A program made the position numbers and the translations under genes. Below the pieces are notes generated by a model. That model was not told the DNA's origin. It searched no databases and was given only the letters and a program-made list of their open reading frames with translations. A stretch of DNA of 64,000 nt, taken from positions 868,001-932,000 of the forward strand of contig NZ_JUGF01000002.1 of assembly GCF_000799165.1 (NCBI RefSeq), in the 5' to 3' direction. How positions within the stretch are numbered: the first letter of the stretch is position 1; every line of letters starts with the position of its first letter. This document shows, piece by piece, positions 5,897 to 23,102 of the stretch. The stretch is from Methylotenera versatilis 7 (lineage in GTDB: Bacteria > Pseudomonadota > Gammaproteobacteria > Burkholderiales > Methylophilaceae).

Positions 5897-7474
5897 ATGA
5901 AGCAAAATTTACAACTTAGAATTTCGCAGAATCTGGCATTAACGCCACAGTTGCAACAATCTATTCGCTTGCTGCAATTATCTAGCCTTGAACTAAACCA
6001 AGAGCTGGATGTGATTTTGCAGGAGAATCCGCTATTGGAGTTGGTTGACGGTGAAGATGGCGATGTAGATGCAGGCTTTGATGATAACGCTGTGCAACAG
6101 AATAATGATCATGACCCTTTGGATGCGGATGGTAAACAAGCCGCCGATGTTGATGAGCCGGATGCTTTTAACAGTTTAGATTATCAAGAAATCGGCAATG
6201 CTACCTCTCAAGAAAGTCCGGAGTCGAATGATGCGCCGCAGGAAATAACTAGCGCGGGAGAGGATTTTTCAGCAGCTGATTTTGATGATAATCACGAAGA
6301 GTATGGCAGTTCGAGTAACTGGGATGAAGGTGGGCGCCAGAATAATAGTGACGATGATGATGGTGACTACACGCGTCAAGAAATAGTTTCTGCAAGTTTG
6401 CGCGAGCATCTATTAAGCCAGCTTAAGTTAATGCCCTTGTCTGATCGTGATCAAACGCTGGTGCAGTTGCTGATTGATAGTATTAACGAGGATGGATATT
6501 TAGAAGAGTCGTTAGCCGACATGGCGGATTTACTGCCGCCTGAACTTGAAATTGAATTGTTAGAACTAGAAACTGCGCTTAAGTTGATTCAGCATTTAGA
6601 CCCACCAGGTTTGGGCGCTACTAATTTACAAGAATGTTTATTATTGCAGTTAAACGCGCTGCCAAAAGAAACCGAATTTCTAAACCTTGCCAAAGCTATT
6701 GTCCAACATCATTTGGCGGTATTGGCTAATAAGGATTTTGCTAAATTACGCAAGCTGCTAAGTTGTGATGATGTTGCTTTAAAAGGTGCTCAGACTTTAA
6801 TCAAGCAACAGAATCCGCGTCCGGGTAGTGATTTTGCGCAATTAAGTCGCGATCACTTTATCCAGCATGAAGTGCTGGTTAAAAAGGTAAAAGGCATTTG
6901 GATTGCTACATTAAATGATGGCGTGATTCCTAAGTTGCGTATTAACCAACTGTACGCCGATATATTGAAGCGCAATCGCGAAAACTCGAATCAATATTTG
7001 CAAACGCAAATGCAGGAAGCCAAATGGATGATTAAAAATATCCAGCAGCGTTTTTCAACCATCCTGCGCGTTAGCCAAGCCATTGTAGACCGTCAGCGCA
7101 ACTTCTTTGAGCATGGTGAAATTGCCATGCGTCCGTTAGTGTTGCGTGAAATTGCAGATGAACTTGAGTTGCACGAATCCACTATTTCGCGCGTGACGAC
7201 GCATAAGTACATGCTCACTCCGCGTGGCGTATTCGAGCTGAAATATTTCTTTGGCAGCCATGTATCAACCGATGCTGGCGGCTCGGCATCGGCCACTGCA
7301 ATTCGTGCGCTGATTAAACAATTAGTAGCTGAAGAGGCGCCTAAAAAACCCTTGTCAGATAACCAGATTACCGAGGTTTTGGCAAAACAAGGCATTATCG
7401 TTGCACGGCGTACTATCGCCAAATATCGTGAGTCTCTCAATATTCCGCCGGCGAATCTACGCAAATCGCTATAG
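5897..7474 (+). CDS. rpoN: RNA polymerase sigma-54 factor RpoN
   Basis: This 525-residue sigma-54 directs RNA polymerase to -24/-12 promoters that need AAA+ activators. Region I at the N-terminus is glutamine/leucine-rich (LQLRISQNLALTPQLQQS), region II (about 50-170) is strongly acidic and Asp/Asn-rich, and region III holds core- and DNA-binding parts. The RpoN box is near the C-terminus as ARRTIAKYRESLNIP. The acidic linker is longer than in E. coli (477 residues). It lies between lptB and hpf in the usual order. Confidence 0.97.
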   Translation: MKQNLQLRISQNLALTPQLQQSIRLLQLSSLELNQELDVILQENPLLELVDGEDGDVDAGFDDNAVQQNNDHDPLDADGKQAADVDEPDAFNSLDYQEIGNATSQESPESNDAPQEITSAGEDFSAADFDDNHEEYGSSSNWDEGGRQNNSDDDDGDYTRQEIVSASLREHLLSQLKLMPLSDRDQTLVQLLIDSINEDGYLEESLADMADLLPPELEIELLELETALKLIQHLDPPGLGATNLQECLLLQLNALPKETEFLNLAKAIVQHHLAVLANKDFAKLRKLLSCDDVALKGAQTLIKQQNPRPGSDFAQLSRDHFIQHEVLVKKVKGIWIATLNDGVIPKLRINQLYADILKRNRENSNQYLQTQMQEAKWMIKNIQQRFSTILRVSQAIVDRQRNFFEHGEIAMRPLVLREIADELELHESTISRVTTHKYMLTPRGVFELKYFFGSHVSTDAGGSASATAIRALIKQLVAEEAPKKPLSDNQITEVLAKQGIIVARRTIAKYRESLNIPPANLRKSL

Positions 7475-17614: not shown

Positions 17615-18883
17615 TTATCCTTTAATTTTAATGCCTAGCTGCTTTAATTTTCGGTACAAATGTGTGCGTTCCAAGCCAGAAATCTCGGCCAATTTACTCA
17701 TATTGTTATTGATGAGTTTCATGTGATATTGAAAGTAATAACGTTCAAAATCATCACGCGCTTCGCGTAAAGGTTGAATCAATTCAATTGGAAACGATGG
17801 CGAGTGACTGGTCTGATCTACTTCGCTAGTGGTAAATTGTTCCAGCACGCGGTTTACGTCGTTGAGGGTAATTTTATCCGTCAAACTACTTAACATGGCA
17901 TTTTGCACAACCGCTTCCAACTCGGCTAAATCGCCTGGCCATTCCGCATTTCTTAATGCGTTCAATGCGGCGATATCAAAGCTTTTGTAATCAGCACCAG
18001 ATGTTTCCACCAGCAAGCTAGCCATGGCGGTGGCCAAATCGGGAATATCCTCTTTGTGATCGTTCAGTGCCGGCACTTTTAACGTGCTTTGAGATAAAGT
18101 TTGCATCAAGGTGTAATCAAACTGTGCGTTATCAGTGAGTTGAGGCAAGCTGAATGCGCTGGCACAAACCACGCGTACTTGATATTTGTCTGCTTTGCTT
18201 AAAAGTAATTGCAGGCCTTTTTGCTCAGACTTGTTTAACGCAGAAACTTCATCAATGTACAGAACACCTTCTCGCGTTTGCTCTAAAATCTCTAGCGGTG
18301 CGCTGGCAAGTTTTTCATATTCAATTAAACTAAGCCAAGGCGTACCAGTGGTGTGTAAAAAACGTGCGCAAAGTTCTACGCTGCCGCCTTTTTTGCCGAT
18401 GAGTAGTAATGCATTTTTTGTACGGGATATTTGCTCTAAGCGCTGTTTTAGCTCATTAATGACTAAGCTTTTGCCAAAGCTGGCCAAGTTCATTTCCGTT
18501 TTTGGCAGGTTTTCTGCGTGTTTTAAGGCGGTGGCTACTGTTTTGAGTAATTTTTGTAGAGCAATTGGCTTCTCTAAAAAATCAAACGCGCCGATGCGGG
18601 TAGCCTCGACCGCAGTATCAATCGTGCCATGGCCAGACATCATCACTACTGGCATAGTTAACAGGCCAGCGTTGCCCCATTCCTTAAGCAAGCTGATGCC
18701 ATCGCAGTCAGGCATCCAAATGTCTAATAGAACTAAGTCTGGTCGTTGTTTTAAACGCGCGTCCCTGGCCGCCTGAGCATTGTCTGCCAGTGTAATGTGA
18801 TGGCCTTCGTCCTCTAAAATGTCTCTTAATAATTCGCGAATGCCTATTTCGTCATCCACCACTAAAATATGCCGTGATGTCAT
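17615..18883 (-). CDS. ntrX: NtrX-like response regulator with degenerate AAA+ domain
   Basis: A 422-residue protein whose N-terminal receiver domain is intact (Asp10/11, phospho-acceptor Asp54 in VLLDIWMPD, Lys105). A Fis-type HTH ends the protein (NMSKLAEISGLERTHLYRKLKQLG). The central domain aligns with sigma-54 activators but the Walker A site reads GKKGGSVE (163-170) and lacks the Gly-Lys-[Ser/Thr] core; the GAFTGA loop that contacts sigma-54 is absent; and Walker B is VLYIDE. It therefore probably binds DNA without remodelling sigma-54 holoenzyme. It follows ntrY directly. Confidence 0.88.
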   Translation of the reverse strand: MTSRHILVVDDEIGIRELLRDILEDEGHHITLADNAQAARDARLKQRPDLVLLDIWMPDCDGISLLKEWGNAGLLTMPVVMMSGHGTIDTAVEATRIGAFDFLEKPIALQKLLKTVATALKHAENLPKTEMNLASFGKSLVINELKQRLEQISRTKNALLLIGKKGGSVELCARFLHTTGTPWLSLIEYEKLASAPLEILEQTREGVLYIDEVSALNKSEQKGLQLLLSKADKYQVRVVCASAFSLPQLTDNAQFDYTLMQTLSQSTLKVPALNDHKEDIPDLATAMASLLVETSGADYKSFDIAALNALRNAEWPGDLAELEAVVQNAMLSSLTDKITLNDVNRVLEQFTTSEVDQTSHSPSFPIELIQPLREARDDFERYYFQYHMKLINNNMSKLAEISGLERTHLYRKLKQLGIKIKG

Positions 18884-18885
18884 GC

Positions 18886-21171
18886 TTAATTTTCCCTTAC
18901 TTGTTTTTTGCGTTTATTGTCATTCATGTTTTTACTTGTTGGCTTATGTGCGAGTTTGTCATCTGCTGGTTGTTTTTTAGTTTCCTGAATAATAGGCAGC
19001 AGAATCGTTACGCAGGCGCCACCAGAAGTACTATTTTCAATTTTAATTTGACCAGCATGCTCGTCTACCATTTTCTTGACAATGGCCAAGCCTAAGCCAG
19101 TACCATGCACTTTTGTGGTGACATAAGGCTCATAAGCGTGAGAGATTATTTTTGCGGGAAAACCTAGTCCATTGTCTTTAATCATCAGTTTAATCGTAGA
19201 TTCGTTAAAACTGGTTTGAACTAAAATTTCAGGATTTTGAATGGGTAAGGCCTCTTCAGATGTCACAAGTGCATCCTGTGCATTTTGCATTAAATTGTGT
19301 AATACCTGTCGCAGCATTGTTGCGTCACCCAAAATATCCGGCATGTTTGGCATTAAGTCATAAGTCATTTTAACGCTGGGATGGTCGTTCGTGTTTTCAT
19401 CACGACCATTCTCGTACAGCATCGATACATCTTTAATCAATGCATTGATGTTCAATTTGCTTAAATTTGCCGAAGGCGAGCGGGCATATTCACTGAATTC
19501 ATTCACCATGGTTTTCATGGCGCTTACCTGGTTAACAATGGTATCCGTGGCGCGTTGCAGCATGCTGGCGTCATCTGTATTTAATTTGCTGCTCAATTTG
19601 TGTTGCAAACGTTCGGCCGATAGCTGAATAGGCGTGAGTGGGTTTTTAATTTCATGTGCCAACCTGCGCGCAACTTCACCCCAAGCTGCATCACGCTGTG
19701 CTTGCACCATCGTAGTCACATCGTCAAATACCACCACAAAGCCATTATCATTGCTGCCAGCACTGGGGTTGTTAGGCAGGCGAGTGGCGCGAACCAGCAG
19801 TAATTGCTTGCCTTGCGGTTTAACGATTTCAATTTGGCGGGTGAGTTCCGTTTTTGCTAACTCATCTGTTTTGGTCAGTTCAAAGTGTGATTTCACCAAA
19901 CTAATAAATTCACCTAAAGAAATATTGCTTTCACTTATTTTAGTAAATTGCTGATTTTCAAACATCGCAAGATTCAAACCTAGAATCGTGCTGGCTGTCA
20001 GGTTAAAAGTGCGCAGTTCGCCTTTTTCATTAATCGCCAGAACGCCGGAAGATAAATGCGCCAGAATAGTCGCCAAATAGCTACGCGCCGCTTCTACGCG
20101 CACACGATTTCGCTCTGTGGCTTTGGTGGCATCATCTAACTGGCGTGTCATGCTGTTAAACGATTTCACCAATACACCCAACTCATCTTTACCATGCTCC
20201 GGCAACATGGTGCTGTAATCGCCGCTGGCAATAGCGCGCGTGCCTTCTGCTAATACGGTCAACGGTTGCGTGATGCGGCGGCTTAATACAAACGCAATTG
20301 CCAATGCTGATAACATCGCTAGCATCAGCACTAATGTCAGCGTCAGTGCAAAAACATCTTTAAGTGAATTGCGACTGTAAGACAGTTCCTGATAATCGCG
20401 ATAAACGTCTTGCACGGCCTCTGCAGTGTTAGATAATGATTTTGGCACAGGCTGCAATAATTGCAAAATGCGGGTTTCGCCGGCTAATTCTTGTACATTA
20501 ACAGGTGCTAATACACGCAAATATAAACCTTTGTTAGGGATAGGCTCAATTTTTCCATACACGCGATTTTGCGCTTGGCGTAGTTGTGGAATACTGGGTA
20601 ATTCTGGCAGGAAGCTATTCGGGTCGCCGCTTGAGACTGAAATAATACGGCCTTGCGGCGTCAGTAATGCAGCATCTTGAATACCCGATTTGTCGCGTAA
20701 ATCATTCAATAAGCTGTAGTGGCTGCGCGATGGCTGAAAAGCCAGTGTGAGTGCCATATTCTCTGCTTTTTCTTCCACATCCTGCAGCATGATATCTAAA
20801 GCGCGCTGGCCTAAACTTAGGCCGCCATCTAGCGCGGACTCTACTTTGACGTTAAACCATGATTCGATTGAGCGCGTTAAAAAGTTCACGCTCACCAAAT
20901 ATACAATCATGCCGGGAATAATCGCCATCAAGGCAAATGTGCCCAGTAAGCGCAAAGTCAAGCGACTACCCATCACCCCACTTTTGATTTTTTTGTACAA
21001 ATGCCACAGTTGAATGACAATCAGCACAATCAAAACACCAGCTAAAGCGATATTAAGGTAGAGCAGGATTTTGTAGTAATCGTTTGAGGCAGCAGTATTG
21101 GCACTGGCTAGCGAAAGTAAGTACAGCAGTACTACACCCAACGCCACACTTACAAATACAATATATCTCAT
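18886..21171 (-). CDS. ntrY: NtrY-like sensor histidine kinase
   Basis: A 761-residue membrane kinase. Two N-terminal hydrophobic segments and another near residue 75 lead to a periplasmic/extracytoplasmic sensor region, then a membrane helix near 280-300 and a HAMP linker (SRRITQPLTVLAEGTRAIASGDYS). A PAS-like domain follows (about 365-480), then HisKA with RRLAHEIKNPLTPIQLSAERL (catalytic His) and a HATPase domain with NLMQNAQDAL and GTGLGLAIVKKMVDEHAG. It is the expected partner of the NtrX-like regulator two bases downstream. The ligand is unknown. Confidence 0.93.
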   Translation of the reverse strand: MRYIVFVSVALGVVLLYLLSLASANTAASNDYYKILLYLNIALAGVLIVLIVIQLWHLYKKIKSGVMGSRLTLRLLGTFALMAIIPGMIVYLVSVNFLTRSIESWFNVKVESALDGGLSLGQRALDIMLQDVEEKAENMALTLAFQPSRSHYSLLNDLRDKSGIQDAALLTPQGRIISVSSGDPNSFLPELPSIPQLRQAQNRVYGKIEPIPNKGLYLRVLAPVNVQELAGETRILQLLQPVPKSLSNTAEAVQDVYRDYQELSYSRNSLKDVFALTLTLVLMLAMLSALAIAFVLSRRITQPLTVLAEGTRAIASGDYSTMLPEHGKDELGVLVKSFNSMTRQLDDATKATERNRVRVEAARSYLATILAHLSSGVLAINEKGELRTFNLTASTILGLNLAMFENQQFTKISESNISLGEFISLVKSHFELTKTDELAKTELTRQIEIVKPQGKQLLLVRATRLPNNPSAGSNDNGFVVVFDDVTTMVQAQRDAAWGEVARRLAHEIKNPLTPIQLSAERLQHKLSSKLNTDDASMLQRATDTIVNQVSAMKTMVNEFSEYARSPSANLSKLNINALIKDVSMLYENGRDENTNDHPSVKMTYDLMPNMPDILGDATMLRQVLHNLMQNAQDALVTSEEALPIQNPEILVQTSFNESTIKLMIKDNGLGFPAKIISHAYEPYVTTKVHGTGLGLAIVKKMVDEHAGQIKIENSTSGGACVTILLPIIQETKKQPADDKLAHKPTSKNMNDNKRKKQVREN

Positions 21172-21190: not shown

Positions 21191-21844
21191 TTATTTGAGA
21201 TCTTTAACACTCGACTCTTTAAGATTAATCAACTCTTTACTATTGGCCTCTTTTAAAGCCCATTCGTATTTTTGAGAGGTTAAGTTCCATTTTTCTGATC
21301 CAATTGCATCTACCTGAATCGCTTTCGGTAGTTTGGATTGATCTAAGCGCACCAATAAAGCGGCGTTATAAGCTTCACTTTTTTCGATGAGCGATTTATC
21401 CATCACTTTCCAATTGTTTATTTGCATAAGCGCATCTTTGGCTTCGTCCAGTGTTTCAAACGACTTTTGGTGTTCACCGTGATTCACCAAATATTGTCGG
21501 CTCAATGCATGGTAACTCAACGTAACGCTTCTGCTAACAGTGACGATTTCATCATCAAACCAATATTTCCATGGTTTAACCACTTGAAATTCAATTAAAA
21601 AATGTAGTGGTACGCCTTTATTAACAGCCTCTTCAATTGCATTATCAAAGTCGATATCAATATCGGCTGATAATGCGTAAGAATCATCTAATGGCTGCAA
21701 CTCAGCATAATTAATGTTAATGCTACTGGCCGCGAAGGCGACCGAAGCCGTATTTAACAATAAAAAAACAATACTGGAGCGCGCGTAGCGGCTAAATTTT
21801 TTGAGGTTAGGTTTTTTGAAGCAGTGCGTAAAAAAGACCATCAT
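21191..21844 (-). CDS. DUF4390 domain secreted protein
   Basis: A predicted exported protein of 217 residues from the ATG at 21844; an ATG at 21901 would add 19 residues within rsmB. The N-terminus has a basic stretch, then a hydrophobic core SIVFLLLNTASVAFA followed by the mature ASSININYAEL. The remainder fits DUF4390, a family of unknown function encoded beside ntrY-type kinases in betaproteobacteria. It overlaps the 3' end of rsmB and precedes ntrY, so it may work with the sensor kinase. Confidence 0.82.
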   Translation of the reverse strand: MMVFFTHCFKKPNLKKFSRYARSSIVFLLLNTASVAFAASSININYAELQPLDDSYALSADIDIDFDNAIEEAVNKGVPLHFLIEFQVVKPWKYWFDDEIVTVSRSVTLSYHALSRQYLVNHGEHQKSFETLDEAKDALMQINNWKVMDKSLIEKSEAYNAALLVRLDQSKLPKAIQVDAIGSEKWNLTSQKYEWALKEANSKELINLKESSVKDLK

Positions 21845-23102
21845 GTTGATGGTTTGGAATAAGTTGGCCCTGTTCAAGCTGAATGTTTTGATGGTTTTCA
21901 TTGTTCAGCGTTAATGGCAATTGAGTTGCATCATGGTTTTTCAGTAAAAAATTGTCAATTTGTTGTTGATTTTCTTCATTAAAAATCGAACAGGTCACAT
22001 AGAGTAATTTACCGCCTTTTGCTAATAATTGCCACAAGTTCGCCAAAATTAAGGACTGTTGCGCGCAAAACGATGCAATATCCGACTCACGACGCAACCA
22101 TTTAATATCCACATGCCGCCGCACAATGCCCGATGCGGTGCATGGGACATCGGCTAGAATACGTTCAAAAGGCTGGTCAGCTTGCCACTGAGCCGCATCG
22201 CCTAATTGCAAATCAGCATTTAAATTCAGTCGGTTTAAATTACTTTCCACGCGGTTTAAGCGGCTGGCATCATTATCTAGCGCGGTTAGCTTAATGTCTG
22301 CCAATTCCAAAATATGACCTGTTTTGCCACCAGGTGCGCAACAGGCATCTAATACCGTCATGCCGCTTTTCAAATCCAGTAAACCTGCTGCTAATTGCGC
22401 GCCATAATCTTGTACAGAAACCACACCATCTGCAAAACCTGGTATTTTTTCAACAGGAATTGGTTGCTCTAAAATCACCGCGTACTTACCCACTTGACTG
22501 GCTACAATATCTTGCCTTGCCAGTAATTGCACGTATTCTTTCGCACTGGTTTTTTGCACATTCACGCGTAACGTCATTGGCGGGTGCGCGTTACCTGTGG
22601 TCAAAATATTTTGCCATGTTGAAGGGTATTGCTTTTTAAGTTTATTAATCCACCACTGTGGATAGGAGTAAAGTGCGACTTCATTATTTTTTGTATCAGC
22701 TTGAACTTGCTGACTTAACACTATTTTCTGCCGTAAAAAATTGCGCAAAACACCATTCACCAAGCCTTTTGCCCAGCGCGGTTTTGCATAACTCGCGGCT
22801 TCAACTGCCTGATTTACCACTGTGAAATCATCCGCTTTATCATGTAGTAACTGGTAAATTGCCACCAGTAAAAGCGCAGTAATATGTTCATTACTTAAGG
22901 GTTTTTCAAGTAATTTAACTAAGTAAGCGTTTACTTCGCCATAAAAACGCAAGGTGCCGTAACTTAAATCTGCCGCCGCGCCGCGCTGTTGCGGCGTTGC
23001 ATTCGGGTAGCTGGAAAGTGCATCTGGCAACGCCAGGGTAAGATTGCGGCCAGATAAAACTTGAGAGATTGCAATCGCGGCGATTTGTTGGGAAATGTAC
23101 AA
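21807..23102 (-). CDS. rsmB: 16S rRNA m5C967 methyltransferase RsmB
   Basis: A 431-residue SAM-dependent RNA methyltransferase that makes 5-methylcytosine in helix 31 of 16S rRNA. An NusB-like RNA-binding domain occupies the first ~140 residues. The catalytic part has DACCAPGGKTGHIL (SAM site), DVPCTASGIVRR and VTCSIFNEEN, the last two bearing the paired active-site cysteines. It overlaps the DUF4390 gene, as commonly seen in this operon. Confidence 0.95.
   Translation of the reverse strand: MYISQQIAAIAISQVLSGRNLTLALPDALSSYPNATPQQRGAAADLSYGTLRFYGEVNAYLVKLLEKPLSNEHITALLLVAIYQLLHDKADDFTVVNQAVEAASYAKPRWAKGLVNGVLRNFLRQKIVLSQQVQADTKNNEVALYSYPQWWINKLKKQYPSTWQNILTTGNAHPPMTLRVNVQKTSAKEYVQLLARQDIVASQVGKYAVILEQPIPVEKIPGFADGVVSVQDYGAQLAAGLLDLKSGMTVLDACCAPGGKTGHILELADIKLTALDNDASRLNRVESNLNRLNLNADLQLGDAAQWQADQPFERILADVPCTASGIVRRHVDIKWLRRESDIASFCAQQSLILANLWQLLAKGGKLLYVTCSIFNEENQQQIDNFLLKNHDATQLPLTLNNENHQNIQLEQGQLIPNHQHDGLFYALLQKT

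Follow-up and report, generated by a model that had tools for sequence, protein, structure and literature searches.

The ntrX-like gene analysed here probably encodes a PlrPSR-type betaproteobacterial NtrYX response regulator that is controlled by phosphorylation, acts at sigma-70 promoters independently of sigma-54 and keeps a pseudo-AAA+ domain as a scaffold. The gene lies in a 64,000-nucleotide stretch of the Methylotenera versatilis 7 genome (the window); the nearest named loci, with a best identity of 89%, likewise point to Methylotenera. In the proposed mechanism, NtrY would phosphorylate Asp54 of the regulator, and a DUF4390 protein probably modulates NtrY in the periplasm. Phosphorylation of the receiver would govern how the protein dimerises and how its Fis-type helix-turn-helix (HTH) binds DNA, and the regulator would activate or repress ordinary sigma-70 promoters with neither ATP hydrolysis nor sigma-54 contact. 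The pseudo-ATPase shell and its lid would serve as a scaffold for spacing, dimer contacts or signal relay. The observations underlying this explanation are the sequence losses in the core, the occurrence of these losses across the order, the retention of NtrX in genomes with no detectable RpoN, the selection acting on the core, the predicted fold and the existence of AAA-less homologues. NtrX matters because it has been reported as putatively or candidate essential in several betaproteobacteria: according to the available parts of the sources, Tn-seq places ntrX of Azoarcus olearius among the putatively essential genes (PMC9769520), ntrX of Herbaspirillum is a candidate for essentiality (PMC5086560), and PlrR~P seems to be essential to Bordetella (PMC13001219). 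The features of the locus are as follows.

17615 to 18883, minus strand: ntrX-like response regulator (PlrR type), 422 aa (ORF, Pfam, NCBIfam, structure-database match)
18527 to 18874, minus strand: receiver domain, residues 4-119, with the phospho-acceptor Asp54 at 18722-18724 (Pfam)
18065 to 18478, minus strand: pseudo-AAA+ core, residues 136-273, PF14532 Sigma54_activ_2 (Pfam, alignment, predicted fold)
18374 to 18397, minus strand: dead Walker A GKKGGSVE, residues 163-170, with Val169 replacing Lys (alignment)
18293 to 18298, minus strand: junction of the first deletion, GAFTGA insert missing, between residues 196 and 197 (exact point alignment-dependent)
18248 to 18262, minus strand: Walker B LYIDE, residues 208-212, Asp kept (alignment)
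18185 to 18190, minus strand: junction of the second deletion, post-Walker B insert missing, between residues 232 and 233 (exact point alignment-dependent)
17813 to 18064, minus strand: AAA lid, residues 274-357 (AAA_lid_14 match at 275-357, Pfam, above cut-off)
17636 to 17755, minus strand: Fis-type HTH (HTH_8), residues 377-416 (Pfam, above cut-off)
18886 to 21171, minus strand: ntrY/plrS sensor kinase, 761 aa, HAMP-(PAS)-HisKA-HATPase, HEIKN at His506 (Pfam)
21191 to 21901, minus strand: plrP-like DUF4390 gene, PF14334, start codon uncertain, ORF overlapping rsmB (Pfam)
21807 to 23102, minus strand: rsmB, 16S rRNA methyltransferase, conserved upstream neighbour (profile match, locus comparison)
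5897 to 7474, plus strand: rpoN (sigma-54), complete with AID, CBD and DBD, given as context and outside the system (Pfam)

The two ends of the regulator are intact, as a sequence-only reading of the same DNA had proposed: the receiver (PF00072, residues 6-116) and the HTH were both matched above the Pfam cut-off, and Asp54 was invariant among 54 aligned sequences. The core in between was covered by PF14532, likewise above its cut-off, over its full profile (positions 1-138 of 138, 144.9 bits). The NtrX equivalog NF051870 was the best NCBIfam model, at 255.2 bits and thus below its cut-off of 600, and the best solved relative by sequence was Brucella NtrX (5m7n), which matched over the full length.

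The same reading had held that Walker A has decayed to GKKGGSVE and that the GAFTGA segment is gone, and the alignment bears out both points: Val169 stands at the position of the Walker A Lys, and GAFTGA was not found within 17615-18883 when the regulator was aligned with the activators of its own genome and with relatives. The shortening of some 25 residues ahead of Walker B was measured at 23 residues, as the difference from the sigma-54 activators of the same genome in the spacing between the Walker A Lys and Walker B Asp positions. Further losses had gone unmentioned, namely, a second deletion of 10 residues between Walker B and beta-4, the loss of the arginine fingers (QFDYTLMQTL vs FREDLFHRL in an own-genome activator) and the loss of the sensor-II Arg, which is replaced in WPGDLAEL of the lid (residues 315-322; GNVRQL in an own-genome activator). 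Walker B (LYIDE) is therefore the sole ATPase motif left in the window's regulator. With the Walker A Lys, GAFTGA, the arginine fingers and the sensor-II Arg all missing, the view that this core has no working sigma-54 activator function is supported. The regulator would also have no ATPase activity; it may bind nucleotide weakly, because Walker B is intact here and 2 of 71 aligned relatives retain the Walker A Lys.

These relatives were 71 full-length NtrX sequences of the same order, with the window included and 27 drawn from its family; they were aligned together with three own-genome activators and 29 gammaproteobacterial sequences. Two sequences truncated by contig ends (L022, L030) and the row of the window's own regulator (L009) were left out, and two of the five own-genome activators were dropped from the references, one as too short (L002) and one as unmatched by the patterns (L005). 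The gammaproteobacterial rows are best matches to the beta protein and hence biased towards it. A smaller alignment, used for the core-identity comparison, had misaligned GAFTGA columns, which were not used.

Both deletions were common to all 71 same-order sequences, and so they are not due to chance. The Walker A Lys and Walker B Asp positions lay 40-43 residues apart (median 42), as against 65 in the three own-genome activators and a median of 60 in the 29 gammaproteobacterial relatives; the distance from Walker B to beta-4 was 28-29 residues, as against 38 in the own-genome activators and a gammaproteobacterial median of 38. In true activators, the two inserts are the loops that reach sigma-54. 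The Walker B Asp was retained in 14 and the Glu in 50 of the 71 sequences; the triad of Walker A Lys and Walker B Asp-Glu occurred in none of them, and GAFTGA was absent at the aligned place in all, the lone loose-pattern match (L051) lying far downstream, near residue 253. Likewise, none of 77 full-length named relatives had the Walker A Lys. GAFTGA was missing in all 29 gammaproteobacterial rows, 23 of which kept the Walker A Lys, and it was missing in Brucella NtrX as aligned by sequence. Two sequences of a gammaproteobacterial family (L114 and L123, f53) had both inserts shortened and the Walker A Lys kept, apparently through an independent event.

A decay specific to the window was accordingly considered and rejected, as the aligned same-order sequences share the losses and GAFTGA is already missing in gammaproteobacteria and Brucella. 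The suggestion of a changed regulatory logic is supported only in part: action without sigma-54 agrees with the genomes described below in which RpoN is undetected (11 of 50, four of them with the pseudo-AAA form), but an organism-specific loss does not agree with deletions shared by 71 of 71 sequences.

An NtrX match at E <= 1e-35 was present in 289 of 300 genomes of the order. All nine genomes of one family (f41) were without such a match, as were 2 of the 291 others. The best E-value was below 1e-78 in 203 of the 289 genomes, the high-score class given by long forms, and ranged from 1.3e-55 to 1.7e-39 in the remaining 86. Thirty-five of these 86 low-score genomes were read, and 34 encoded an AAA-less NtrX of approximately 210-300 residues that consists of receiver, linker and HTH; the ten coded families of the 34 also account for the other 51. 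The exception, G284 of the same family, had been suspected of AAA-domain loss from its E-value and was rejected as such, being a fast-evolving long form of 414 aa; the low-score class is an imperfect marker of AAA loss because of this diverged sequence. Its NtrX (L055, from a 1.4-Mb genome) had 34% identity, a long tree branch and core motifs beyond recognition. One genus (g48) holds both forms, long in G288 and short in three examined genomes.

A tree was built by a quick method from the C-terminal part of NtrY, the receiver and the HTH (95 rows, 530 columns; the HTH part was missing in 10 rows, where the pattern did not find it). The AAA-less state required three changes on this tree, two of them forced by starred branches. 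A single group of all 32 AAA-less rows was disfavoured on the quick tree (p-AU 0.022), a value that is only moderately low, for a group named from the trait itself and with 38 of 92 inner branches open. Loss of the AAA domain more than once is therefore favoured. The resulting series runs from NtrX proteins in which GAFTGA is missing (Brucella, gammaproteobacteria), through betaproteobacterial ones that lost both inserts along with the greater part of the ATP site, to some that then lost the domain.

The retained shell may be explained in several ways, of which a scaffold kept by selection is the preferred one. Synonymous sites were saturated in most pairs (for the core, 13 of 45 pairs were used, with a median dN/dS of 0.049; the pairs L088/L095 and L095/L105, equal in length and unaligned, were ignored), and the selection argument is hence carried by two close pairs, with a core dN/dS of 0.008 (L018/L020) and 0.032 (L011/L012; dN 0.0032, dS 0.099). 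A structure predicted from 54 sequences (mean pLDDT 83.6, pTM 0.59; blocks 141-270 at pLDDT 77-92) showed strands alternating with helices, as in an AAA+ core, followed by the lid. The FlrC AAA+ domain (6lua_A) superposed on the model over 214 residues (rmsd 2.3, Z 21.5); VIA-align rows were mostly receiver domains, and families other than those listed may also match. In Foldseek, Brucella NtrX filled the first six rows, followed by NtrC1, NtrC4 and LuxO, with VpsR and FleQ at ranks 12-18. As the predicted fold is retained and purifying selection is strong in the two close pairs, the pseudo-AAA shell would be a kept scaffold and not junk.

In an extended form of this explanation, ATPase function was retired stepwise, with GAFTGA lost first (the ATP site being largely preserved in Brucella and in most gammaproteobacterial rows read), then the inserts and the ATP site, then, more than once, the whole domain, and the shell took on a new sensing or switching role that does not involve ATP. 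We regard this form as rather doubtful; the new role, if true, would explain the strong selection on the shell. It is unlikely that the domain is roleless wreckage on its way to being lost, with the receiver and HTH alone of importance. Of the four parts compared, the core and lid indeed show the lowest conservation across families (median identity to the window's regulator 39% each, vs 74% for the receiver and 65% for the HTH, over 44 rows from other families), and outright deletion has removed the domain, probably in more than one event. However, the purifying selection within the genus pairs, the uniform insert lengths in 71 sequences, the confident predicted fold and the lack of a stop codon in any of the matches listed all argue against wreckage.

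Quite improbable, in our judgement, is an emptied AAA+ pocket that serves as a ligand or redox sensor, by analogy with VpsR and FleQ, which bind c-di-GMP, or with Cys172 and Cys240 as a switch. VpsR and FleQ do appear among the Foldseek matches, following NtrX, NtrC1, NtrC4 and LuxO. Cys172 (18368-18370) was found in 58 of 71 betaproteobacterial NtrX sequences and in 4 of 29 gammaproteobacterial relatives, and Cys240 (18164-18166) in 51 of 71 and 1 of 29, respectively. On the tree, the two cysteines did not co-vary significantly (median p 0.25, with pairs too few to reach 0.05), and the residues that relatives carry at these sites are mostly hydrophobic or small, so the cysteines may serve packing only.

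Independence from sigma-54, which forms part of the preferred explanation, was approached through genomes in which RpoN was undetected. Both Sigma54_DBD and Sigma54_CBD were without a match in 11 of 50 NtrX-bearing genomes, which were selected mostly for small size, so that this proportion should not be taken as a frequency estimate; the same search matched Sigma54_CBD in the window's genome. The 11 genomes are 98-100% complete and fall into six coded families, and in each of them NtrX adjoins an NtrY with HEIKN. Seven carry an AAA-less NtrX, and four (G063, G107, G111 and G249) carry the long pseudo-AAA form, with neither GxxGxGK in the core nor GAFTGA. Because RpoN was undetected there, NtrX in these genomes cannot act through sigma-54, a statement that concerns other families and is no proof for the window's genome, which has RpoN.

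As had been noted from the sequence, rpoN (5897-7474, plus strand) lies approximately 10.1 kb from the ntrX-like gene. A bearing of this nearness on the regulator is not supported, as the genome holds other, intact activators for RpoN: Sigma54_activat gave five strong matches elsewhere in the genome, and GxxGxGKE and GAFTGA were seen in four of these, the fifth being unmatched by the patterns used. A scan of the whole window with a -24/-12 consensus and up to two mismatches gave 16 sigma-54 promoter matches, with 16.4 expected by chance, and hence no signal. A persisting sigma-54 function, exerted by recruiting another bEBP or through a rebuilt contact, is very improbable even with RpoN and several true activators in the genome, as both inserts are gone and orthologues are retained in genomes with no detectable RpoN.

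The window's locus is an rsmB-plrP-ntrY-ntrX locus of the PlrPSR type. The regulator gene, with its receiver Asp and DNA-binding domain, adjoins the kinase gene, and the PF14334 gene and rsmB sit directly upstream of ntrY; relatives of rsmB, plrP and ntrY were present in all 52 named loci with full flanks (presence, and not order, was scored). NtrY had been called complete, which agrees with HAMP, HisKA and HATPase_c matches above the Pfam cut-offs and with HEIKN at His506; the PAS and NtrY_N matches were below theirs.

Several elements of this picture are known already, as far as the available parts of the literature extend: NtrX and NtrC proteins lacking GAFTGA and betaproteobacterial NtrX lacking AAA+ have been described, and the shortened domain is contained in PF14532 and 3co5. 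Among open-access publications, no title describing a pseudo-AAA NtrX intermediate was found, and the available passages of papers on Neisseria NtrX make no mention of the AAA+ core. Like the window's regulator, PF14532 and PDB 3co5 have a shortened core, 3co5_A matching profile positions 135-273; the source organism of 3co5 is, we presume, Neisseria gonorrhoeae. The name of PF14532 promises an interaction with sigma-54 that would not be expected of the window's sequence, and the Pfam label "Sigma-54 interaction domain" is misleading here.

Brucella NtrX (5m7n, 5m7o and 5m7p) resembles the window's regulator as its best full-length match, as one of its best fold matches and in having no GAFTGA. 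In the sequence alignment, however, it still has Walker A (GPSGAGKE) and Walker B together with the FREDLFHRL and WPGNLRQL segments, and its structure titles record crystals with ATP and with ADP, whereas the window's regulator has lost nearly all ATP-site motifs and both inserts. The available text of PMC10274813 describes bEBPs without GAFTGA (Rhodobacter capsulatus NtrC, Caulobacter NtrC and Vibrio cholerae VspR) that act at sigma-70 promoters, and also a Caulobacter NtrX without GAFTGA. These bEBPs are NtrC-like and lack the sigma-54 contact loop, as does the window's regulator; in contrast, the NtrC proteins of R. capsulatus and Caulobacter depend on binding or hydrolysing ATP (PMC10274813, available text), and the window's regulator has no Walker A Lys. 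Loss of GAFTGA alone does not imply independence from ATP, because R. capsulatus NtrC requires ATP binding at its sigma-70 promoters (PMC10274813, available text). Phosphorylated alphaproteobacterial NtrX recognises CAAN2-5TTG and is able to act as a repressor where this motif overlaps the start, as stated in the accessible portion of PMC9223101.

The Bordetella PlrPSR system, as presented in the available part of PMC13001219, shares with the window a consecutive run of rsmB, plrP (DUF4390), the kinase gene and the regulator gene, the HEIKN kinase and a regulator composed of receiver and DNA-binding domain. The authors propose that PlrP adds a third component to PlrSR, and Bordetella genetics alone indicate that PlrP limits the phosphatase activity of the kinase through the periplasmic domain. 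The same portion of the paper, citing Bonato 2016, states that betaproteobacterial NtrX "lack the AAA+ domain"; in the window, by contrast, a pseudo-AAA domain is present and folded in the model. Judged by sequence matches, the statement fits only part of the order, the larger high-score part of which includes long forms, every one of those read carrying a pseudo-AAA domain. Such living intermediates offer a way to test how an enhancer-dependent activator becomes an ordinary regulator and what purpose a dead AAA+ shell serves. In two metagenome bins whose titles, which may be wrong, name Bordetella parapertussis, NtrX (L213 and L221) was of the long form, with 54% and 52% identity, respectively.
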